From: Oscillospiraceae bacterium
Lineage (GTDB): Bacteria > Bacillota > Clostridia > Oscillospirales > Ruminococcaceae
Length of the DNA: 64,000 bases
Reading direction: 5' to 3'
Assembly: GCA_012520915.1 (NCBI GenBank)
Contig: JAAYNJ010000024.1
Location: 62,001 to 126,000, forward strand
A program made the position numbers and the translations under genes. Below, piece after piece: positions 13,840 through 62,877 of the stretch. A model generated the notes under the pieces. It made no database searches, had not been told where the DNA came from, and saw only the letters and a program-made list of their open reading frames with translations. The stretch's first letter is position 1. The number at the start of each line of letters is the position of its first letter.

Positions 13840-14331
13840 GTGTTTTCGGGGGTTATTATTTTATATTTATTTATTTCCTTTCTTCTTGTCCTGGTTGACA
13901 GATTTTCAAAATCTTACGCAATTGCCCGTAAAACCGAGACATTTGATATTATTCCGGGTTTTATAAGATTTATCTATGTCGAGAACAGGGGAATAGCATT
14001 CGGCCTTTTTCAAGGAAAGACTTTTGTAATCATTGTACTGTCTTCTATTGCGGTTTTTTTATTGGTTTATCAACTTTTGTTTAATAAGTTTGATTCCCGA
14101 CTGGCAAATATTTCACTTTCATTTATCACAGCCGGCGGTATCGGAAACCTGTATGATCGGATAGTAAACGGATTTGTTGTAGATTTTATTGAGTTTTCTT
14201 TCTTTGAATTTCCTGTATTTAATGCAGCCGACATTTTTGTTAATATTGGCGCATTTCTTTTAATTCTCTATTTGATTACTAATAGGAAAAAAATCTTTTC
14301 CAGGGATACCGTTTCAGATAATAATGATTAG
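13840..14331 (+). CDS. lspA: Lipoprotein signal peptidase LspA
   Basis: Membrane aspartic protease that removes signal peptides of prolipoproteins, such as the BMP lipoprotein encoded at 54855. Four transmembrane segments are visible. The two catalytic aspartates lie in GNLYDRIVNGFVVDFIEF and FPVFNAADIFVNIG. 163 residues, normal. The GTG start at 13840 puts the first helix with VDRFSK in the expected place, but it has no clear ribosome site. Overlaps rluD by 8 bases, the usual partner in Firmicutes. Confidence 0.93.
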   Translation: MFSGVIILYLFISFLLVLVDRFSKSYAIARKTETFDIIPGFIRFIYVENRGIAFGLFQGKTFVIIVLSSIAVFLLVYQLLFNKFDSRLANISLSFITAGGIGNLYDRIVNGFVVDFIEFSFFEFPVFNAADIFVNIGAFLLILYLITNRKKIFSRDTVSDNND

Positions 14332-52482: not shown

Positions 52483-53079
52483 TTAAATGTTTAGAATGTC
52501 TGTTACGAATCTAAAAAAAAGATAATAATCTTCCTCCAGGCTTAGGTTAAAACCAAACAGTTCATTGCCAACTTCGCGATTTAAAAAAGCGGATTGAATT
52601 GCGGATAAGAGCATAAAAGCCTTTATCTTACCGGTATTTCCCGGCTCTTTTTGCGAAATCGCTCTAAAGATAGCTCTGTAGCTTACAGATGAATTGCTTT
52701 CAAGATTCGGCTGTGATAGGTCACCCAGCATGGATATTTTTGATATTTCAGGATTGTTTATTAGAAATGTAAAAACCCTTGTAGTAAATGATGCCATGTC
52801 TTCATTTTCCTCTTCGGAAGCATCTTTTTTATCCGACGAATTATTTATTTCTGAAAAAGTCTTCATAACATGAGAAATAATTCGCTGTACACAGATTTCT
52901 ATGAGTTTCTTCTTTGATCCGAAATGATAGTTGATTAGTCCTACGGCAACACCGGCTTCGTTTGCAATTTCCCTAACGGTTATATTTTCCGCCAAACCGT
53001 CCGAACCTTTGATTAAAGTAATTGTTGTATTGATTATTATTTCCTTTATATTCGTAAATTCCTGAATTTCTGTTTTCAT
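52483..53079 (-). CDS. TetR-family transcriptional repressor
   Basis: 198 residues. N-terminal helix-turn-helix ENITVREIANEAGVAVGLINYHFGSKKKLIEIC is of the TetR class; the C-terminal ligand domain (60-198) is not further recognised. ATG 53079 has AGGAGG before it on the minus strand. Two palindromes in its own promoter strongly suggest autorepression and control of the hydrolase genes behind it. Confidence 0.92.
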   Translation of the reverse strand: MKTEIQEFTNIKEIIINTTITLIKGSDGLAENITVREIANEAGVAVGLINYHFGSKKKLIEICVQRIISHVMKTFSEINNSSDKKDASEEENEDMASFTTRVFTFLINNPEISKISMLGDLSQPNLESNSSVSYRAIFRAISQKEPGNTGKIKAFMLLSAIQSAFLNREVGNELFGFNLSLEEDYYLFFRFVTDILNI

Positions 53080-53356: not shown

Positions 53357-54754
53357 ATGAAGCATGCATGGGAAATAAACAGAGAAATACTTTTAAATAC
53401 TGTACCTGAGGTGCAGCACAATGTTTCAGGTGCATGGGAAGAACAGCTTCCTGATTTTGCCGCTGTGGATATTGCAGATGTGCGCATGAAGTGTAAATCA
53501 AGGGTTCCCGGAAGTTTAGCTCAAGAGCGTGTATTGGTAGGCGGAATTCAGGCAGTTGGAAATATGGGCTATGATGTCAGTGAAGCTGAAGCTATGATTC
53601 CGGCTTTTTTTGACGCTTATGACAATAATGACAATATTGCTCTCCTGCAAATGGTTCCGAAAATCTACGAAACTTTAGGAAGGGCTCCAAAAATCGAAGG
53701 TCATCCCTATTGGTCATTTACTCAGTACGATTCATTTGAACAGTACGAAAAGAACGTAACCTTCCCAAAATACGATATTCCGAAATTTGATGATAAAATT
53801 CTGTTTGAAAAACTTCATGCCGCCTGGCTGGCTCAAATCGCAGGAGCTGCCGTCGGGACAATGATTGAAGGTTACTGTACAGACAGACTTCGTGAACATT
53901 TCGGTGAAATTCGTGGCTATCTGAGGGAACCATCCACACTTAACGACGATGTCCTGTTTGAATTGGCATTTCTTGAGGCTTTTGCCGATAAAGGATACGA
54001 TGTAACTTCAGAAGATATAGCGATGAACTGGCTTGGAAAAATAGAATTTGCTTGGAGCGCCGAAGAAGTTGCAATGAAAAATTTAAAACGGGGAGTATTC
54101 CCGCCAAAGTCCGCTTCACTGAACAATCCATGGAGAGAATGGATTGGCGCCCAAATGAGGGGAGCGATATGTGGACTTGTTGCCCCCGGAGATCCTTATA
54201 CCGCAGCAAGATTGGCGTGGATTGACGGTTGCATCTCACATGTCAATAACGGAATTATAGGTGAAATATTTAATGCGGTAATGACCTCTCTAGCATTTGT
54301 TGAAACCGACATTAGGACAATTGTGGAAAAATCCATTGAAATGATTCCAGTTGACAGCGAATACTATTCGGTAGTCAAGTTCGCACTTGACGAATGTAAA
54401 AAGCATAATACATGGGAGCCCGCATGGAGAGCATGTGAAGAAAAGCTTTATAAATACAATTGGATTCATTCTTATCCTAATGCAGCTTCAGAAGTTGTTT
54501 CACTCTGGTTTGCCCGGAATGATTTTGACGAGTGTATGCATATATGTGCTATGTGTGGACAGGATGTCGACTGTAACGCCGCTCAAATCGCCACCCTATA
54601 CGGCGTGATATGGGGATACGACGCAATATCCGAATCCTGGACAAAACCTTTTGACGACAAGTTTGAGAGCGTTTACAGAGGGTTTGAGGATACTACTATT
54701 ACGAGGATAGCCAAACTGACATTTGATTCCATAAAAAAGCACATGGTTTTGTAA
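53357..54754 (+). CDS. ADP-ribosylglycohydrolase family protein, copy A
   Basis: 465 residues. An N-terminal extension of about 150 residues (GNMGYDVSEAEAM, HPYWSFTQYDSFEQY) precedes an ADP-ribosylglycohydrolase fold. Core motifs: AGAAVGTMIEGY, the metal pair LNDDV (N196-D197-D198, where classical enzymes have TDDT), SHVNNGIIGE, and the second metal site DVDCN (403-407). The family removes ADP-ribose from proteins or small molecules; this subgroup may act on nucleosides. AAGGAG before ATG 53357. A full-length paralogue lies at 59834-61246, and a nucleoside ABC transporter lies between the two. Confidence 0.85.
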   Translation: MKHAWEINREILLNTVPEVQHNVSGAWEEQLPDFAAVDIADVRMKCKSRVPGSLAQERVLVGGIQAVGNMGYDVSEAEAMIPAFFDAYDNNDNIALLQMVPKIYETLGRAPKIEGHPYWSFTQYDSFEQYEKNVTFPKYDIPKFDDKILFEKLHAAWLAQIAGAAVGTMIEGYCTDRLREHFGEIRGYLREPSTLNDDVLFELAFLEAFADKGYDVTSEDIAMNWLGKIEFAWSAEEVAMKNLKRGVFPPKSASLNNPWREWIGAQMRGAICGLVAPGDPYTAARLAWIDGCISHVNNGIIGEIFNAVMTSLAFVETDIRTIVEKSIEMIPVDSEYYSVVKFALDECKKHNTWEPAWRACEEKLYKYNWIHSYPNAASEVVSLWFARNDFDECMHICAMCGQDVDCNAAQIATLYGVIWGYDAISESWTKPFDDKFESVYRGFEDTTITRIAKLTFDSIKKHMVL

Positions 54755-54776
54755 CCGTTTGTAAGATTTGATTTTA

Positions 54777-54804
54777 TTGACTTATCATTGTATTAAGTTA
54801 TAGA
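54777..54804 (+). promoter_or_regulatory. Promoter for the BMP transporter operon
   Basis: TTGACT at 54777-54782, 16-base spacer, TATAGA at 54799-54804, about 50 bases before the lipoprotein gene. It allows transporter expression separate from copy A. Confidence 0.55.
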
Positions 54805-54854
54805 ATGTAAATATAGTTAATGGTTTTCATCAAATAAAAATAATTGGAGGAATT

Positions 54855-56024
54855 ATGAAAAAATTATTAGCAATTCTCTTGTCGCTGATGCTTATAATCG
54901 GATTGGCTGCATGTGGCGGAGAAAAGGCTCCTGAAGCCGGTACCGATTCCGGTAAAACCGACGGAGAAAAAGAAACCGTTGCGGAAGGCAAAGAAGTCCT
55001 TAAGGTTGTCAACCTGATAAACGGAAACCTTGGAGACAAGTCTTTCCACGACTCCTGTGAGGCAGGATTGTCGGCACTTAAAGAAGAAGGTTATATCGAA
55101 TATAAAACCATCCAGATGGGTGCAACAGAAGCCGACAGACCCAAGTGGAAAAGCACTCTCGAGGAAGTATCTGAGCAAGGTGAATACGATGTAATCGTTG
55201 TTGGAACCTACAACATGCAAGAGTATTTGATTGAAGTCGCGGAGCAGTATCCCGATCAGAAATACATTTCTTACGACGCCGCTGTCGATTTGCCGAACGT
55301 TGCAAGTATAACCTACAAGCAAAACGAACTCGGCTACCTGATAGGAATACTCGCTGCAACATTTACTACCGATACATCGATTGAAAATGTAAATGCCGAC
55401 AAGGTAATAGGATTTATCGGTGGTGGAGACATTCCCGTAATCAACGACTTCCTGGTCGGATACATTGAAGGCGCAAAATTTGTCGATCCCGACATCAAAG
55501 TCGACGCACAGTATGTCGGAGGAACAAGCGGGTGGAGTGATCCCGCAACTGCAAAAGAACTCTCAAACGTTATGATTACCCAGTACAAAGTTGATGCTAT
55601 CTGGAACGTAGCCGGCGGTTCCGGTAACGGAATGGCGGAAGCTTGTGCAGAGCTCGGCGCATGGTTTATCGGCGTTGACTCCGACCAGGAGCAGGCCTTC
55701 TCAGAAGCTCAGCCTGAGTTGGCAGCGGTCACCATAACAAGCGGACTCAAGAGAGTTGACAATTCGCTTATCGCGGTCTTCAAAGACATAATTGACAACG
55801 GCGCAAGTCCCTGGGGTACAACTACTGAACTCGGTCTTGCCGAGGGTGGTGTAGGTGTCGCAACCGAAGGAAATTACTCAAAGTTCTTCGGTGATGAAAT
55901 CAACAAAGTCATTGAAAAAGCAAAAGCGGGTATTGATGATGGAAGTATCGTTGTCAGCAGCGCATTCGGAATGGAAACTGCCGAAGTCGAAGCTCTGAGA
56001 AACGAAGTATCTCCCAGAAAGTAA
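54855..56024 (+). CDS. BMP-family nucleoside-binding lipoprotein
   Basis: 389 residues. Lipoprotein signal peptide with lipobox LAAC, cysteine C20, then a linker rich in G, E, T and K, and a BmpA/PnrA-like periplasmic-binding fold: NLINGNLGDKSFHDSCEAGL, VVGTYNMQEYLIEVAEQYPDQKY, YLIGILAATFT, GFIGGGDIPVINDFLVGYIEGAKF, and VAGGSGNGMAEACAELG. BMP proteins bind purine or pyrimidine nucleosides outside the cell and deliver them to an ABC importer. TTGGAGGAATT before ATG 54855. Confidence 0.92.
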   Translation: MKKLLAILLSLMLIIGLAACGGEKAPEAGTDSGKTDGEKETVAEGKEVLKVVNLINGNLGDKSFHDSCEAGLSALKEEGYIEYKTIQMGATEADRPKWKSTLEEVSEQGEYDVIVVGTYNMQEYLIEVAEQYPDQKYISYDAAVDLPNVASITYKQNELGYLIGILAATFTTDTSIENVNADKVIGFIGGGDIPVINDFLVGYIEGAKFVDPDIKVDAQYVGGTSGWSDPATAKELSNVMITQYKVDAIWNVAGGSGNGMAEACAELGAWFIGVDSDQEQAFSEAQPELAAVTITSGLKRVDNSLIAVFKDIIDNGASPWGTTTELGLAEGGVGVATEGNYSKFFGDEINKVIEKAKAGIDDGSIVVSSAFGMETAEVEALRNEVSPRK

Positions 56025-56038
56025 TATCTGAAATGCTT

Positions 56039-56090
56039 TAAAGCCTATCGGCTTTAATCGCAAAGGGGAGTTTTACTCCCCTTTGTTTTA
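56039..56090 (+). terminator. Tandem hairpins after the BMP gene (partial terminator)
   Basis: First hairpin TAAAGCC/GGCTTTA (56039-56056). The second is CAAAGGGGAG/CTCCCCTTTG (56061-56085), then TTTTA. Placed between the binding-protein and ATPase genes, it likely lets binding protein be made in excess over the membrane parts. Confidence 0.78.
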
Positions 56091-56114
56091 TAAAAAAGTA
56101 TACAGGGAGGCAAG

Positions 56115-57710
56115 ATGGTAAATTCCGATATTATCGACGGCAAGATTAATGAAAATGATTATGCCGTTAAGATGAGCGGTATAACAAAGGTCTATCCGAA
56201 CGGAATTGCGGCAAATAAAGATGTTGATTTCTTTGTTAGAAAAGGCGAAATTCACGCGCTTATGGGCGAGAACGGAGCCGGAAAATCAACCTTGGTTAAA
56301 ATTCTTTTCGGCATAGAACAACCCACAAGTGGTAAAATTGAGATAAACGGCGAGGAAATTTCAATAACCTCTCCGCAGGTAGCTATCGGCAAGGGAATCG
56401 GCATGGTGCATCAGCACTTTATGTTGGTTCCTTCATTAACTGTTGCTGAAAATGTCGTTTTGGGTATAGAGCCCCGCAAGGCAAAAACTTTTATTGATTA
56501 TAAGGAAGCCGTCAAACTGACGGAGGAAATTTCAAAAAAATATAATCTTCATGTCGATCCATATGCTAAAGTTATGGACATTCCTGTTGGAATGAAACAA
56601 AAGGTTGAAATTCTAAAAGCGCTAATTAGAGGTGCAAATATTCTGATACTCGACGAGCCTACCGCCGTACTGACAACACAGGAAACAGAAGAACTCTTTA
56701 AAGAGTTGAAGGCTCTGAAAGAAATCGGGTTTACAATAATATTTATCTCCCACAAATTGAACGAGATAAAGGAAATAACGGACAGATTGACGATTCTGAG
56801 AAACGGACGATATATGGGTGTCTATAACACCGACGAAGTTTCAAAGCAGGATATATCCCGTTTGATGGTCGGCAGAGACGTAATATTAAGCGTCGAAAAA
56901 GATAAGGCTGCACCAAAAGAACCCATTTTAAAAATTGAAAACCTGAGATTCAGGAATCAATGGGGAAAGGAAGTTCTTAGAGGTGTTTCTCTTAACGTTC
57001 GCAGAGGTGAAATACTGGGAATTGCCGGCGTCGAGGGTAATGGACAGCGCGAGTTGGTTGATATTCTCTTTAACATTGATAAGCCTAATTCAGGAGATAT
57101 AAGGTTAAACGATAAGAGTCTGATAAACTGCAGTGAATCTGAACTAAGGGAGCTTGGAATTTCATACATTCCTGAAGACCGAATGACTTATGGTGTTGCT
57201 GATTCAGCAACCATCGAAGAAAACCTGATATCGGACAGAATATATGAGAAACGTTTCAGCGGCAAATTAATGCTTAATTCCGCAGAGATTGCAAAAGAAA
57301 GCGAAAAGCTTATCGAGGATTATCAGATTCTTTGTCGTTCTAGAAAACAGCAGGTTCGCATGCTTTCAGGAGGAAATATCCAAAAGGTTGTTGTTGCAAG
57401 AGAATTCTCAAGCAACCCGGATTTGATAATAGCCGACCAGCCCACAAGGGGAATAGATGTCGGTGCAACCGAATTTATCAGAAAAAAACTTGTAAGCCTG
57501 TCAAGAGAGGGAGCTGCGGTCCTGCTCGTTTCCGCTGACCTTAACGAAGTTATGGAATTGTCCGACAGTTTGGTTGTGTTTTATGAAGGACAGATAGTTG
57601 CATATTTTGAAGATACCTCCACTCTTACCGACATTGAGATGGGGGAATATATGCTGGGTTTAAAGCGCCAAACTGATGAAGAGATAAGGAAGGTGACACA
57701 CATTGATTAG
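56115..57710 (+). CDS. Nucleoside ABC transporter, double ATPase subunit
   Basis: 531 residues with two ABC domains, as in sugar and nucleoside importers (RbsA/NupO/YufO type). First domain: GENGAGKSTLVK, Q-loop HQHFMLVPSLT, LDEPTAVLT. Second domain: GVEGNGQRELVDIL in place of a full Walker A, SGGNIQKVV signature and ADQPTRGIDVGA. So, as usual, only one site may be fully active. GGGAGG before ATG 56115. Energises the two permeases downstream. Confidence 0.94.
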   Translation: MVNSDIIDGKINENDYAVKMSGITKVYPNGIAANKDVDFFVRKGEIHALMGENGAGKSTLVKILFGIEQPTSGKIEINGEEISITSPQVAIGKGIGMVHQHFMLVPSLTVAENVVLGIEPRKAKTFIDYKEAVKLTEEISKKYNLHVDPYAKVMDIPVGMKQKVEILKALIRGANILILDEPTAVLTTQETEELFKELKALKEIGFTIIFISHKLNEIKEITDRLTILRNGRYMGVYNTDEVSKQDISRLMVGRDVILSVEKDKAAPKEPILKIENLRFRNQWGKEVLRGVSLNVRRGEILGIAGVEGNGQRELVDILFNIDKPNSGDIRLNDKSLINCSESELRELGISYIPEDRMTYGVADSATIEENLISDRIYEKRFSGKLMLNSAEIAKESEKLIEDYQILCRSRKQQVRMLSGGNIQKVVVAREFSSNPDLIIADQPTRGIDVGATEFIRKKLVSLSREGAAVLLVSADLNEVMELSDSLVVFYEGQIVAYFEDTSTLTDIEMGEYMLGLKRQTDEEIRKVTHID

Positions 57711-58782
57711 TAAAAGGGAGAAGTTTTTTGATATTGCAAGAAGCGCTTCAGCCATAGCCCTTGCCATGGGTGTCGCATTTGCATTAATTTTATTGACATC
57801 AAAAATGCCCGGAGAGGCGATTAAGAGCTTGATAGTAACTCCTTTCTCAACTAAAAGGTATGTTTGGAGAATTTTAGAAAGGATGGTACCGCTTGTATTT
57901 ACCGGATTAGCGGTATGTATCATGTTTTCTTCAAACCAGTTTAACCTTGCCGGAGAAGGAGCATTTTTTGCGGGCGGTATGACCGGGGCATCAGTTGCCA
58001 TATATATGAATCTTCCATTCGGACTGCATCCCGTAGTCGCTGTCATATTTGCCGGACTTGTCGGCGCAATAATAATGCTTTTGGTTTCTATTTTAAGCGT
58101 AAAGCTCGGCGCAAATATGCTGGTAATATCGCTGATGGTAAACTATGTTATTCTTCAGTTTGGAACCCACATTAATACCTATGTAATCAGGGACCCGCAA
58201 TGGGGCGGCAACGGTTCTTATTTAATGCAGAAATCCGCCCTGATTCCACCCATTAAGTACACCACCAGTTATGGACTTATATTTGCCGTCTTGATGATAG
58301 TTGTTGTAGGTCTATATATCTACCACACAAAATGGGGTTATTCGGTAAGAATGATTGGAGCAAATATTTCGTTTGCTCAATATTCCGGAATCAAAGTGGA
58401 CAGTGTCATAATCTCAAGCCAACTCATCGGCGGCGCAATTGCCGCAATGGGGGGCGCCGTCGAAGTATTGGGATTTTATAAAAGATTCGAATGGAATGCT
58501 CTTCCCGGATACGGTTGGACAGGTGTTACGATTGCAATATTGGCAGGCAACAATCCGTGGAAGGTACCTCTGGCAGCGTTTTTTCTTGCCTACCTGGAGG
58601 TGGGTAGCGGACTTATGCAGATTAATGCAGATATTCAGCCTGAAATGCTTGATATTATAAAGGCGATAATCTTCCTGTTCTTTGCGGCAAAGAATTTCCT
58701 TGCGCCGTTGAGGCAGAAGCTGGTCGTTAAAGCCGCTCTCTCTGAACTGAACGAAAACAAATCGGTCGAGGCGGAGGTTTAA
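57703..58782 (+). CDS. Nucleoside ABC transporter permease 1
   Basis: 359 residues, eight or more transmembrane helices, BPD_transp_2 family (NupP/YufP type). Characteristic parts: FTGLAVCIMFSSNQFNLAGEGAFFAGG, VRMIGANISFAQYSGIKVDS, and GYGWTGVTIAILAGNNPWKVPLAAFFLA. The TTG start at 57703 overlaps the ATPase gene by 8 bases; AAGGTG lies upstream. Forms the channel with permease 2. Confidence 0.93.
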   Translation: MISKREKFFDIARSASAIALAMGVAFALILLTSKMPGEAIKSLIVTPFSTKRYVWRILERMVPLVFTGLAVCIMFSSNQFNLAGEGAFFAGGMTGASVAIYMNLPFGLHPVVAVIFAGLVGAIIMLLVSILSVKLGANMLVISLMVNYVILQFGTHINTYVIRDPQWGGNGSYLMQKSALIPPIKYTTSYGLIFAVLMIVVVGLYIYHTKWGYSVRMIGANISFAQYSGIKVDSVIISSQLIGGAIAAMGGAVEVLGFYKRFEWNALPGYGWTGVTIAILAGNNPWKVPLAAFFLAYLEVGSGLMQINADIQPEMLDIIKAIIFLFFAAKNFLAPLRQKLVVKAALSELNENKSVEAEV

Positions 58783-58784
58783 AT

Positions 58785-59753
58785 ATGCAAAATGTATTGA
58801 ATGCAATGATGACACCGAGCTTCGGCTATGCCATACTTCGAATGACCACCCCGATTCTCTTTGCCACGTTGGCAGCAGTAATAGCATCAAAAGCCGGCGT
58901 TTCCAATATCGGTATTGAAGGCATTATGATGTTTTCAGCGCTTGCCGGAGTTATTTTCAGCGGCATGACTAAAAGCTGGGTTGTAGGTTTGCTGTCTGCG
59001 TTGGTTGTCGGCGTTTTCTTGGGTCTGATGATTGGTTTCTTTGCATTGAAGTTAAATACCGACATAGTATTGGCTGGTATCGCAGTAAATACACTTGGGG
59101 GTGGGGGAACCATATTCTTTCTCTTTCTCGCTTCCGGAGACAGAGGCGCATCAAACAGCATAACCAGTGAGATTGTTCCGAAAATTAATATTCCCCTTAT
59201 AAAAGATATTCCTATATTAGGCGAGGTTTTGTCAGGACATAGCGGATTAACATATTTTGCATTTGTCTGTGTTATCCTGGTTTATGTACTGCTCTACAAG
59301 ACGCCTCTTGGACTTAAAATGAGGGCAGTAGGGGAGAACAGAGATGCTGCCGATTCCGTCGGTGTGAGTGTAAATAAAATAAGCTATATTGCACTTGCAC
59401 TATCAGGTCTTCTTGCCGGACTCGCCGGAGCTTTCATGTCCATGGGATATATGAAGGGATTTACCGTCAACATGGCCGCGGGAAGAGGCTTTATCGGTCT
59501 TGCAGCCCAGGCAATGGGTCAGGGCGAGCCGATAGGCGGAATGCTCGCCTCACTCCTCTTCGGATTCGCAAACGCAATTGCAATCAACCTCCAGGGCGCT
59601 ATAAGCCTCTCACCTCAAATCATCCAATCATTCCCATATATTCTGGTGATAGTTAGCTTGGTATTCTATTCGTTATCTACAAGAAACCGGCTAAAAAGGA
59701 TAAAAAGAGCGGCAATCGAGTCGGATAAAACTGAAGCAAAAGATAATAGCTGA
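58785..59753 (+). CDS. Nucleoside ABC transporter permease 2
   Basis: 322 residues, BPD_transp_2 family (NupQ/YufQ type). Shared marks with its partner: ASKAGVSNIGIEGIMMFSALAG, KMRAVGENRDAADSVGVSVNKI, and AAGRGFIGLAAQAMGQGEPIGGMLASLLFG. GGAGG before ATG 58785, two bases after permease 1. Last gene of the operon. Confidence 0.93.
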   Translation: MQNVLNAMMTPSFGYAILRMTTPILFATLAAVIASKAGVSNIGIEGIMMFSALAGVIFSGMTKSWVVGLLSALVVGVFLGLMIGFFALKLNTDIVLAGIAVNTLGGGGTIFFLFLASGDRGASNSITSEIVPKINIPLIKDIPILGEVLSGHSGLTYFAFVCVILVYVLLYKTPLGLKMRAVGENRDAADSVGVSVNKISYIALALSGLLAGLAGAFMSMGYMKGFTVNMAAGRGFIGLAAQAMGQGEPIGGMLASLLFGFANAIAINLQGAISLSPQIIQSFPYILVIVSLVFYSLSTRNRLKRIKRAAIESDKTEAKDNS

Positions 59754-59779
59754 TTGATTTAAAACTAATCTATCAAAAC

Positions 59780-59819
59780 TATAAATCCCCCGCCCGAATA
59801 ATCGAGCGGGGGATTTATA
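59780..59819. terminator. Bidirectional terminator between convergent operons
   Basis: TATAAATCCCCCGC at 59780-59793 pairs exactly with GCGGGGGATTTATA at 59806-59819. It closes the transporter operon on + and ARH copy B on -. Confidence 0.92.
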
Positions 59820-59833
59820 GTTGCAATTTATTT

Positions 59834-61246
59834 TTAGATTATCTCGACATTTCCAGCCTTAATGATTGCCGATACTGTTTCTTCAGCGAGGTCGTCATAC
59901 CTTATCTTTTCCATTCCTCTGAGATAAGTTTCCATATATTCGCCAAACGGTTTCCAGAGTTTTTCATCGATTATTTTCATTCCATGATATACTGCCGGAA
60001 TATTTGCAACTTGAGCTGCGTTGCAGTCGACATCAAGACCGCACATTGCCGTTATCGAAACCAGTTTGTTAAAGTCGTTTTCACAGAAATAAAGTGCGAT
60101 GACCTCTATTGCCGCATTGGGGTAGGCATGTATCCAACAATACTCTTTATATTTATCGTCGCAATCGATCCATGCATCACGCCAATTTCCATATTTTTCA
60201 CATGCTTTCCACGCATATTCGACAACATTGCGATATTCGGAATCCTTGGGCATCATATCAATTGCCATTCTGCAAATCTTTTTAAGATCGCTTTCAACAA
60301 AGCCCAAAGATACCATAACAGCATTAAAGACTTCTCCGAGAATTCCGTTATTTGCATGAGAAATTGTGGCATCTCTCCATGCAAGTTCAGCAGCAAGTTC
60401 AGGATTTGCGGGGGCAACCATTCCACATACTCCGCCTCTCATCTGTGCGCCGATAAACTCGCTGAAAGGATTTTTATATGTACCGCTCTCGGGTGGATAG
60501 ATCCCATTTTTAATGTTGTTTAACGCAATAAGCTCAGCGGTATATCCGCTCGGTATTCTTGCAGCCCACATCTCTGCAATGTCATCTGCCTTTACATCAT
60601 TACCCGCCTTGATAAACTCTTCGAGAAATACCAATTCAAATGTCAGGTCATCGTTATACATCTCAGGCATCTTTGTATAGCCGTCTACCCAGCCGTACAC
60701 GTTTTCTATGTTAATCGTATGATAACCTTCCAGCGGGGTTCCGACCGCGCCTGCACATACCTGAGCCATCCAGCCGGCATATATTCTGTCATACAGTTCT
60801 TCTCTGGATATTTTCAGCTTATCGTATTTCGGGAACTCTACGCTGTTTTTATACTGTTCAAAAGATTCATATTGAGTATATGACCAATAGGGGTGTGAGG
60901 GGATTTTAGGGGCATTATGAAGAGCTCTGAACAGTCTGCATGTTATTCTATATAAACCTATTTCATTGTTTCTGGCAAGGTCGTAGAGTCCTTCCGCAAG
61001 GAGTTTCTCCGCTTCGGAAACATCATATCCCATATTGCCTTTATCCTGGACCATGTAAGCAAGATTAAACAGATTGGTCCTTGCTTCTTCATGAAGGCTA
61101 TGCCAAAGTGCCTTCATTTTATCCAAGTCCCGGGCACCTTCATCTATAATTGCATCAAAAGGCACTCTTTTTGCTCTCTCAGGAAAAGGAATCATTTTTT
61201 CGACTATTTCTCTGGTGTATTCCCATGCTTTTTTGTATTCCTGCAT
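59834..61246 (-). CDS. ADP-ribosylglycohydrolase family protein, copy B
   Basis: 470 residues, paralogous to copy A over the full length, including the N-terminal extension (GNMGYDVSEAE, HPYWSYTQYESFEQY). Motifs: CAGAVGTPLEGY, metal pair YNDDL (N198-D199-D200), SHANNGILGE, and DVDCN at 405-409. So both copies share the NDD and DVDCN variants and are likely active on similar substrates. GGAGG before ATG 61246 on the minus strand, with its own promoter. Confidence 0.85.
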   Translation of the reverse strand: MQEYKKAWEYTREIVEKMIPFPERAKRVPFDAIIDEGARDLDKMKALWHSLHEEARTNLFNLAYMVQDKGNMGYDVSEAEKLLAEGLYDLARNNEIGLYRITCRLFRALHNAPKIPSHPYWSYTQYESFEQYKNSVEFPKYDKLKISREELYDRIYAGWMAQVCAGAVGTPLEGYHTINIENVYGWVDGYTKMPEMYNDDLTFELVFLEEFIKAGNDVKADDIAEMWAARIPSGYTAELIALNNIKNGIYPPESGTYKNPFSEFIGAQMRGGVCGMVAPANPELAAELAWRDATISHANNGILGEVFNAVMVSLGFVESDLKKICRMAIDMMPKDSEYRNVVEYAWKACEKYGNWRDAWIDCDDKYKEYCWIHAYPNAAIEVIALYFCENDFNKLVSITAMCGLDVDCNAAQVANIPAVYHGMKIIDEKLWKPFGEYMETYLRGMEKIRYDDLAEETVSAIIKAGNVEII

Positions 61247-61281
61247 AAAAGACCTCCATAAAAATTTTTTATATTAAATAT

Positions 61282-61310
61282 ATTTTAACATAGAGTTTTT
61301 ACTTATCCAA
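61282..61310 (-). promoter_or_regulatory. Promoter for ARH copy B
   Basis: On the minus strand TTGGAT (61310-61305), 17-base spacer, TAAAAT (61287-61282). It is 35 bases upstream of the gene and directly behind the udp terminator hairpin. Confidence 0.6.
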
Positions 61311-61317
61311 CTTATAA

Positions 61318-61352
61318 ACAGGCAACTGTTGTTTCATAAAACAGTTGCCTGT
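61318..61352 (-). terminator. Terminator after the deoC-udp operon
   Basis: 13-bp stem ACAGGCAACTGTT/AACAGTTGCCTGT with a 9-base loop. The minus-strand tail has only a short T-run (TTTATAAG), so its strength is moderate. Confidence 0.6.
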
Positions 61353-61436
61353 AGCTTGTAGAAAAGGAAGTTACTATTTGTCCATAAACCTCTTTCATTT
61401 TCGGCAGGGAGGGTGTTAATTTAATTCAAATATACA

Positions 61437-62192
61437 TTATTTCAGTTTTTCGAACTCAATTTGATTCGTCACATCGTGTTTTATGAGCAATTTTACTGCA
61501 TCACAAGCTGTCATTATCGTTTCTTCCATCGACTTATAATTCATTATACCCCCGGCTCTGACACCCCTTATTGATGAAATTACATAAAGTGCCGCACACT
61601 CCATTTCAGAACACGCTACATTTCCCTTAATCCATGCATTCCATCGATTTTTTAAATATTCCGAATTCGGCATATTTTCCGGTTCGTGTTGTCCATAAAA
61701 AGAATCTTTTGACTGCGTTATTCCGACTAAATAATTCAGTCCTCTTCTCTTTGCAGCAAATTCAAGAGCCGCCGTTACATTTCGATCTGCAACTGCGGGA
61801 TATTCTATCGGTATATACTGTATAGTAGTTCCTTCATCTCTAACTGCTGCGGAACAGATTACCCCGTCCAATGACTCGTCAAACGATTCTTTACTCACCC
61901 TTCCCGCCGTTCCTATTCTTATAAAAGTATCAGCTCCAATTTTTATTAATTCCTCCAGAGCTATAGCGGTCGAAGGACATCCCATTCCCGTAGAGGTAAC
62001 CGAGACCTTCTCACCCTCCAAATAGCCTGTCCATGTTTTGTGTTCTCTGTTATGAGCGACAACAACAGCATCATCAAGAAATGACGCTATCAGGTCGGTT
62101 CTGAATGGATCTCCGGGTAAGAATACATATCTCCCTACATCGCCTGCCTTCATTCTAATATGATATTGCAACCCATTCACGGTCAGTTCCAT
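61437..62192 (-). CDS. udp: Uridine phosphorylase-like nucleoside phosphorylase
   Basis: 251 residues from ATG 62192, behind AGGAGG at 7-base spacing; the frame is open to 62216, which would include the ribosome site. Splits pyrimidine nucleosides with phosphate into base and ribose-1-phosphate. NP-I family marks: LPGDPFRTDLIASFLDDA, TSTGMGCPSTAIALEEL, IRIGTAGRV, the uridine-phosphorylase segment GITQSKDSFYGQHEPENMP, and SEMECAALYVISSIRGVRAG. Paired with deoC and near the nucleoside importer, so it probably handles imported nucleosides. Confidence 0.88.
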   Translation of the reverse strand: MELTVNGLQYHIRMKAGDVGRYVFLPGDPFRTDLIASFLDDAVVVAHNREHKTWTGYLEGEKVSVTSTGMGCPSTAIALEELIKIGADTFIRIGTAGRVSKESFDESLDGVICSAAVRDEGTTIQYIPIEYPAVADRNVTAALEFAAKRRGLNYLVGITQSKDSFYGQHEPENMPNSEYLKNRWNAWIKGNVACSEMECAALYVISSIRGVRAGGIMNYKSMEETIMTACDAVKLLIKHDVTNQIEFEKLK

Positions 62193-62220
62193 TAATAAAC
62201 CTCCTTTCAAAATCAAATCC

Positions 62221-62877
62221 CTACTTGACTTCGCTTCTAAGTATCTTTATAGCAGAGCTTGTTCCCAAACGTTCACATCCTAACTCTATATACTTAATCA
62301 TATCTTCACGTGTGCGTATACCGCCGGATGCCTTTATTTTCAGTTCGGCTCTTATATTATTTCTAATCATTTCTACCGCTTCAAAGGTAGCCCCGTATTC
62401 TGCAAACCCTGTAGATGTTTTAATAAAGTCTGCATCGGAATCGGATACATATTTGCAGACTTCAACAAGCTCCTGTTCGGAAAGATTGCAGGTTTCAACA
62501 ATAACCTTCAGAATTTTGCCGTTACATGCTTTCTTAACAGCATTTATTTCATCAGTTAGATCTTCATACTTTTTATCTTTTACAAAACACTGATTTATAA
62601 CCATATCAATCTCATCTGCAGATTTTTTAATTGCATCCGCAGTCTCAAAAATCTTTGTTTCTTTAGAGGAATATCCGTTCGGGAAACCGATAACTGTGCA
62701 AATATTTAGTTTGCTTCCAAATTTCTTTCTTGCTTCACCAACAAAGCACGGGGGAATACAAACGCTGGCTGTATTGAATTTTATAGCTTCTTCGCATAAA
62801 TTAAAAATATCATCTCTTTTACAGGTTGTTTTTAATAATGTGTGATCAACATATCTCATAATTTCCAAAGCAGTCAT
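62221..62877 (-). CDS. deoC: Deoxyribose-phosphate aldolase
   Basis: Cleaves 2-deoxyribose-5-phosphate to glyceraldehyde-3-phosphate and acetaldehyde, the last step of deoxynucleoside catabolism. VDHTLLKTTC, VIGFPNGYSSKETK, Schiff-base lysine in FIKTSTGF, and KASGGIRTREDM are present. 218 residues, normal. It is 28 bases ahead of udp. No phosphopentomutase gene (deoB) is seen nearby, although it would be needed to link the two steps. Confidence 0.95.
   Translation of the reverse strand: MTALEIMRYVDHTLLKTTCKRDDIFNLCEEAIKFNTASVCIPPCFVGEARKKFGSKLNICTVIGFPNGYSSKETKIFETADAIKKSADEIDMVINQCFVKDKKYEDLTDEINAVKKACNGKILKVIVETCNLSEQELVEVCKYVSDSDADFIKTSTGFAEYGATFEAVEMIRNNIRAELKIKASGGIRTREDMIKYIELGCERLGTSSAIKILRSEVK

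Follow-up and report, generated by a model that had tools for sequence, protein, structure and literature searches.

What two ADP-ribosylglycohydrolase (ARH) paralogues might do on either side of a nucleoside-type importer is the question raised by a 64,000-nucleotide stretch of an Oscillospiraceae bacterium (assembly GCA_012520915.1, contig JAAYNJ010000024.1, positions 62,001 to 126,000), hereafter the window. The two genes, copies A and B, flank an ATP-binding cassette (ABC) importer of the BMP type and encode proteins with an N-terminal extension; we call the N-extended ARH subfamily that holds both of them ARHx. A sequence-only reading of the window had proposed that the pair hydrolyzes an imported ribosylated compound in a salvage system completed by Udp and DeoC, and the open reading frames, coordinates, and strands of that cluster are as it described. 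Our analysis indicates that the ARHx pair are probably metal-dependent ribosyl hydrolases that act on imported ribonucleosides, releasing the base and ribose.

The association of ARHx with BMP importers extends well beyond the window. The 18 genomes with full-length ARHx contain 20 ARHx genes, 15 of them less than 10 kb from a BMP gene, where 0.59 would be expected from BMP coverage, and none of 200,000 draws reached 15; the other ARHs of those genomes are near BMP in 7 of 39 cases (1.5 expected). This count omits four BMP rows under the cut-off and treats the window’s A and B as one locus with two genes. We also surveyed loci, taking a full-length match to profile A1 of ~500 bits or more as the boundary between core ARHx and distant ARHs. 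Within 9 kb, the 26 core loci contain a BMP gene in 20 cases, a matching permease in 17, a PfkB-type kinase in 16, a LacI-like gene in 10, and an IU-type nucleoside hydrolase in 5, while the corresponding numbers for the 29 distant loci are 0, 3, 5, 3, and 1. Chance adjacency is rejected both by the gene linkage (15/20 versus 0.59 expected) and by the locus survey (20/26 versus 0/29 with BMP). The linkage recurs in at least seven surveyed families (f1, f18, f93, f119, f123, f124, and f151) with changed gene order. The survey suggested by the sequence-only reading, which regarded an absence of such linkage in relatives as fatal to the idea, finds the extended subfamily strongly tied to BMP importers in several bacterial families.

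Several features of the sampling define these counts. L132 was distant in an earlier count of 25 loci and became core in the count of 26 once it had grouped with L125 and L127 in the tree. L040 duplicates L003 and was excluded, and twelve weaker loci (L048–L059), for which no BMP label was shown, lie outside the 29 distant loci. Loci L001–L007 were retrieved with copy A as the query and so favor near relatives, with L004–L007 mutually close; L043 and L045 belong to one genus and L118–L120 to one family. ARHx is also rare, being full-length in 8 of 297 family genomes and in 4 of 394 genomes drawn from the order, and scoring above 500 bits in 8 of 398 genomes drawn from the phylum (source genome included in both draws).

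The recurring partners point to the fate of the sugar. The kinase count of 16/26 uses the kinase half alone, keeping out LacI regulators that an earlier 16/25 could include; two of the 16 loci are weak (L046, 42 bits; L047, 53 bits). Five of nine kinases scored pass the ribokinase profile TIGR02152 (L004 2762, L121, L122, L123, and L001 13576, the last of which sits in an IunH operon neighboring the ARHx operon of L001), and four fail it (the L004 fusion, L043, L118, and L039). The recurrence of a ribokinase-type kinase, together with IU-type hydrolases in some loci, favors hydrolysis to free ribose, and the occurrence of IU-type hydrolases within some ARHx operons suggests that ARHx covers nucleosides those hydrolases do not. 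Of 25 ARHx loci, two have a PNP/UDP gene nearby and two a DeoC gene, with the window included in both pairs, which led us to reject Udp and DeoC as defining partners in general. The earlier salvage idea thus retains its importer linkage and exchanges Udp and DeoC for ribokinase-type kinases and some IU-type hydrolases.

Operon forms in relatives display the same components in several arrangements. In Hungatella and other Lachnospiraceae (L001, L004–L007, of which L005 stops at a contig edge) the order is kinase, BMP, ATPase, permease, permease, B, A, with a YczE-like gene (under its NCBIfam cut-off) preceding BMP in L001 and following A in L004. A second operon next door in L001 reads ribokinase-IunH-IunH-BMP-ATPase-permease-permease, so that its two nucleoside hydrolases correspond to the two ARHx genes of the first operon. 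A LacI-ribokinase fusion lies downstream of the ARHx genes in L004 (12164–14065, identified by Pfam) and in L006 (12094–14058) and L007 (12267–14168), both identified by similarity; it is a possible ribose-sensing regulator. L121 and L122 combine BMP, ATPase, and permease genes with two IU-type hydrolases, a deaminase-type amidohydrolase, ARHx, and ribokinase, and L123 carries a LacI-like gene, ribokinase, BMP, ATPase, permeases, an IU-type hydrolase, and ARHx. ARHx and an importer are joined by a DeoD-type phosphorylase in L046 and by a divergent PucR-type regulator in L043 and L045. L118–L120 contain a PfkB kinase, a PsuG-type protein, ARHx, and BMP with no matching permeases within 9 kb; the L118 kinase resembles pseudouridine kinase (211.3 of 540 bits). 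Separately, the Rfam family TwoAYGGAY RNA has three matches at gathering level around the L004 ARHx operon (732–896, 2233–2395, and 14040–14187, all on the minus strand).

To relate this context to the proteins themselves, we compared copies A and B with characterized ARHs. They are full-length paralogues, as previously claimed, with 44% identity across 460 residues, and each contains an ADP_ribosyl_GH domain (PF03747; 8.1e-43 in A and 1.2e-37 in B) at residues ~155–428 in Pfam, with scores of 147.6 and 130.6 bits for the two copies against a cut-off of 26.2. The reported N-terminal extension of ~150 residues is real in both, and residues ~1–150 have no Pfam match. The altered motifs NDD(V/L) and DVDCN are likewise present; the 21 aligned sequences, including A and B, show no variation at N196-D197-D198 or D403-D405-C406. 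Sixteen of the 17 other ARHx sequences read NDDI, all 17 have T next, and the A clade has L at that last position.

According to passages of PMC8141533, ARH3 binds two metals through T76, D77, D78, D314, D316, and T317, and D314 contacts the ribose 3''-OH. Mapping through an ARH copy encoded on contig C16 of the source genome places all four Asp ligands in ARHx as D197, D198, D403, and D405, while both Thr ligands are changed (T76 to N196 and T317 to C406). Glu171, equivalent to ARH3 E41, is kept in the A and B clades alike; with four Asp and Glu171 retained in both clades, neither A nor B looks inactive. ARHx has IGAQMR where ARHs have NGA-x-M-R/K, and compared with the C16 copies it has lost the Asp of ‘GDA’ and the Asn of ‘NGA-x-M’. 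These differences suggest that the ribose-metal site is kept and its surroundings altered for whatever the ribose is joined to. Because both Thr metal ligands are replaced, we do not claim membership of the classical catalytic ARH class for ARHx. The DraG equivalog profile TIGR02662 gives A 17.4 of the 337.05 bits required and the Tri1 profile 11.8 of 490, with no match to B in either case. Neither copy matches PF01156, the IU-type nucleoside hydrolase family (E up to 0.1), so judged by sequence ARHx may work like an IU-type nucleoside hydrolase but belongs to another family.

Structure prediction, also suggested earlier for both copies, was carried out for copy A. The AlphaFold model, built from a 14-sequence alignment, has a pLDDT of 83.9 and a pTM of 0.88, and its residues 142–465 superimpose on ARH3, MJ1187, and DraG with Z scores of 26.7–29.5 and root-mean-square deviations of 2.7–3.1 over 279–297 residues. 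The model shows that copy A has the ARH fold. The extension modeled alone yielded a weaker prediction (pLDDT 74, pTM 0.59). Its identity with a known domain was rejected, as the best Foldseek match has an E of 2.0 and the best VIA match, covering 60 residues in a helical bundle, a Z of 6.1; the absence of a convincing structural match does not prove a new fold.

The importer also bears on the ligand. Excerpts of PMC7093131 and PMC13325309 describe BmpD and BmpA as binding nucleosides and not ribose, and those of the latter place the nucleoside of BmpA, a BMP-type protein, in a deeply buried pocket. The window’s BMP protein scores 161.6 bits against the Bmp profile. With BmpA numbering transferred by alignment to Treponema pallidum PnrA and residue roles taken from the same passages of PMC13325309, it retains Asp98, Asp225, and Lys242, which contact the ribose, and the aromatic Phe27, while Phe176 is replaced by Trp and Asn28 by His. 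This combination is consistent with a nucleoside as ligand and a base site that differs somewhat.

These observations suggest a three-step pathway. A ribonucleoside would enter through the adjoining BMP-type ABC importer; cytoplasmic ARHx would then convert nucleoside and water to base and D-ribose in a metal-dependent reaction; and a ribokinase-type PfkB kinase, encoded close to ARHx in the majority of the relatives surveyed and at other sites in the source genome, would phosphorylate ribose to ribose 5-phosphate. In the window, Udp and DeoC would add a parallel phosphorolytic and deoxyribose route. We infer this reaction, a free and probably non-standard nucleoside as the substrate, and a division of labor in which A and B differ in substrate or cooperate.

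Some observations weigh against this pathway. At six of the 26 core loci, BMP is missing from the surrounding 9 kb. Two of these are at contig ends (L003 and L132), L124 stops at a contig edge inside permease genes, and L041 has six IunH genes before ARHx instead, leaving L044 and L047 with neither an importer of the BMP type nor a contig end to account for it. In L042 the BMP gene is 8 kb away on the opposite strand with no permease seen, and the fetched locus stops just past it. The window’s own cluster has no kinase within 9 kb in the locus survey. Furthermore, the source genome already contains 21 matches to IU-type nucleoside hydrolases, so an additional hydrolase is not obviously needed.

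Other explanations keep the importer and change the substrate. IU-type nucleoside hydrolases act on β-nucleosides, and α-ribazole and α-adenosine, α-ribosides freed from corrinoids, would be candidate substrates for ARHx. ARHx could take α-ribosides because ARH1 and ARH3 are themselves α-specific, cleaving α-NAD+ and not β-NAD+ according to portions of PMC9738213. ARHx enzymes would then be α-ribonucleoside hydrolases, a BMP operon with both IU-type hydrolase and ARHx would use both anomers, and A and B would be two α-specific enzymes or a heteromer. We regard this as unlikely; nothing in the window directly favors it, and a literature search for α-ribazole returned nothing on a hydrolase of this kind, passages of PMC13389410 and PMC9503650 included. 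Riboswitch control, including by a cobalamin riboswitch that would favor corrinoid-derived substrates, was considered and rejected, since the only families matched at gathering thresholds in the window, in L039, and in 14 ARHx loci were tRNA, TwoAYGGAY, glmS, and fluoride. It is similarly improbable that the BMP importer brings in a non-nucleobase riboside, such as an imidazole or amino-acid riboside: distant relatives in L130, L131, and L133 have histidine ammonia-lyase and urocanase genes as neighbors, whereas some core loci carry genes for IunH, a DeoD-type phosphorylase, a PsuG-type protein, or a deaminase-type amidohydrolase. The sequence-only reading had also listed an ADP-ribose-like substrate, which is less likely than a nucleoside. 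That the pair breaks down imported ADP-ribose, NAD fragments, or another ADP-ribosyl small molecule appears quite unlikely given the buried nucleoside pocket of BmpA and the changes in ARHx where the C16 copies keep canonical sequence.

Two further explanations dispense with an imported ribosyl substrate or with a shared one. As ARHs, A and B could control the importer or a salvage enzyme by reversing regulatory ADP-ribosylation of protein or DNA, in the manner of DraG acting on dinitrogenase reductase, and the shared fold and the retained metal Asp residues and Glu171 are compatible with this. We nevertheless hold it to be rather improbable, since the DraG and Tri1 scores of A are far under their cut-offs and B has no match, both Thr ligands and the NGA-x-M-R stretch are changed, and the recurring partners are catabolic. 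No ADP-ribosyltransferase is present among the best 25 of 168 neighbor families by member count (125 of 136 listed neighbor proteins entered the grouping), although no dedicated ADP-ribosyltransferase scan was run. Finally, ARHx could merely hitchhike, as catabolic genes cluster even when they act on different compounds. Its patchy distribution fits this idea, but BMP linkage across families despite changed gene order makes it very unlikely. Hydrolysis of imported ribonucleosides remains our preferred reading.

The paralogue pair itself is ancient. In a tree of 38 rows, the window’s A and seven A-type genes form one clade (100/100), and B and five B-type genes form a separate one (100/100) that groups with L043/L045 (95/94). 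Recent duplication is rejected by these separate clades, and the sequences indicate that A and B are two old lineages. B was seen in six loci, always alongside A; L002 and L003, of which L003 lies close to a contig end, have A alone. The window’s gene order is unlike that of Lachnospiraceae, yet both A and B remain in the cluster.

In the window, a plus-strand row of A, BMP lipoprotein, double ATPase, and two permeases is met by a converging minus-strand row of deoC, udp, and B (Table 1). The deoC product scores 237.9 bits against TIGR00126 (cut-off 117.3), whereas the udp product scores 239.6 bits against the uridine phosphorylase profile TIGR01718 (cut-off 280.3); the earlier deoC assignment holds, and udp stands as a PNP_UDP_1 match short of that profile.

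Table 1 Coordinates of the ARHx cluster and adjoining features in the window
Feature	Position	Strand	Description	Basis
ARHx copy A	53357..54754	+	N-terminal helical extension (1–~145) and ARH-fold domain (~146–465)	Open reading frame, Pfam, alignment, AlphaFold model, tree
N-terminal extension of copy A, residues 1–145	53357..53791	+	Predicted helical; Pfam blank; structural matches unconvincing	
BMP/PnrA-type nucleoside-binding lipoprotein (predicted)	54855..56024	+		Pfam Bmp, PnrA alignment
Double ABC ATPase of importer	56115..57710	+		Pfam ABC_tran
ABC permease 1	57703..58782	+		Pfam BPD_transp_2
ABC permease 2	58785..59753	+		Pfam BPD_transp_2
ARHx copy B	59834..61246	-	B clade, whose five remaining members are in tandem with A in Lachnospiraceae	
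Uridine-phosphorylase-like protein (udp)	61437..62216	-		PNP_UDP_1; under equivalog cut-off
deoC, deoxyribose-phosphate aldolase	62221..62877	-		Pfam DeoC; above TIGR00126 cut-off
TetR-type regulator, divergent from copy A	52483..53079	-	Cluster membership putative	Pfam

The source genome (1.9 Mb, 96% complete) contains five PF03747 genes: A, B, and three at one unlinked locus on C16 (L039). The latter encode short ARHs with canonical TDD, NGA-x-M-K, and DTDT motifs, and all five genes lie at most 5 kb from the genome’s only two BMP matches. The C16 locus (8907–18027 of L039), with an ARH on the minus strand followed by BMP, ATPase, permease, permease, ARH, ARH, and PfkB kinase, is an unextended parallel to the window cluster. 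The genome also has deoB and 24 PfkB matches, with arrays of five on C3 (L170) and six on C14 (L171). Many of its IU-type hydrolase matches are in tandem (C2, C4, C10, C11, C16, C21, C25, and C29; partly L167–L169, L172–L174, and L176). Forty other genomes drawn from the family have at most three each, and G050 of that family, outside the draw, has at least six (L041). This abundance suggests a nucleoside specialist.

Distant ARHs occur in other settings as well. L130, L131, and L133 are three of four loci of family f92, the fourth (L135) being cut by a contig end, and L130 also contains an ABC permease gene along with LacI-like and ribokinase-like genes; these f92 ARHs could act on an imidazole or histidine riboside. 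In L155 a distant ARH is clustered with a ribokinase-like gene, NAGidase, DUF4127, and FAD_oxidored, and L156 matches L155 in gene length and order, the two features compared.

ARHx can be placed among known systems. With the ARH family (PF03747; ARH1/ARH3, DraG, and MJ1187) it shares the fold over residues 142–465, the four metal Asp residues, and the Glu equivalent to ARH3 E41, and it differs in its ~145-residue extension, Asn and Cys in place of the Thr ligands, IGAQMR, and catabolic neighborhood. In Escherichia coli yegTUV, putative transporter, ARH, and sugar kinase genes are also adjacent. Passages of PMC10819704, a 2024 paper, describe YegT as a predicted nucleoside:H+ symporter, call the yegTUV functions unknown, and tie the operon and its regulator to glycogen. 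YegU, however, is a short ARH of 334 residues that shares 29% identity with a C16 copy and is paired with an MFS transporter rather than a BMP-ABC importer; the ARHx system has its own importer type, extension, altered motifs, and paralogue pair. BMP/PnrA importers with IU-type hydrolases and ribokinase share the importer type and operon logic, and both hydrolase types stand together in L121, L122, and L123, but the ARHx hydrolase has an ARH fold and is not a PF01156 protein. Our literature search, covering titles, the starts of abstracts, and passages of PMC10819704 and PMC10434189, found no ARH described there as an enzyme of nucleoside catabolism; it also listed three staphylococcal papers, on cassette islands and MRSA, that mention both an ADP-ribosylglycohydrolase and a ribokinase.

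To our knowledge, many bacterial ARH genes have neither a known ADP-ribosyltransferase partner nor a known job. The linkage of ARHx to nucleoside importers, ribokinase, and sometimes nucleoside hydrolases offers a concrete candidate for a catabolic role. If this is true, part of a family that reverses ADP-ribosylation would shift to carbon and nucleoside metabolism, and the label ‘ADP-ribosylglycohydrolase’ would be misleading for ARHx genes. ARHx could also show how Firmicutes exploit unusual nucleosides.

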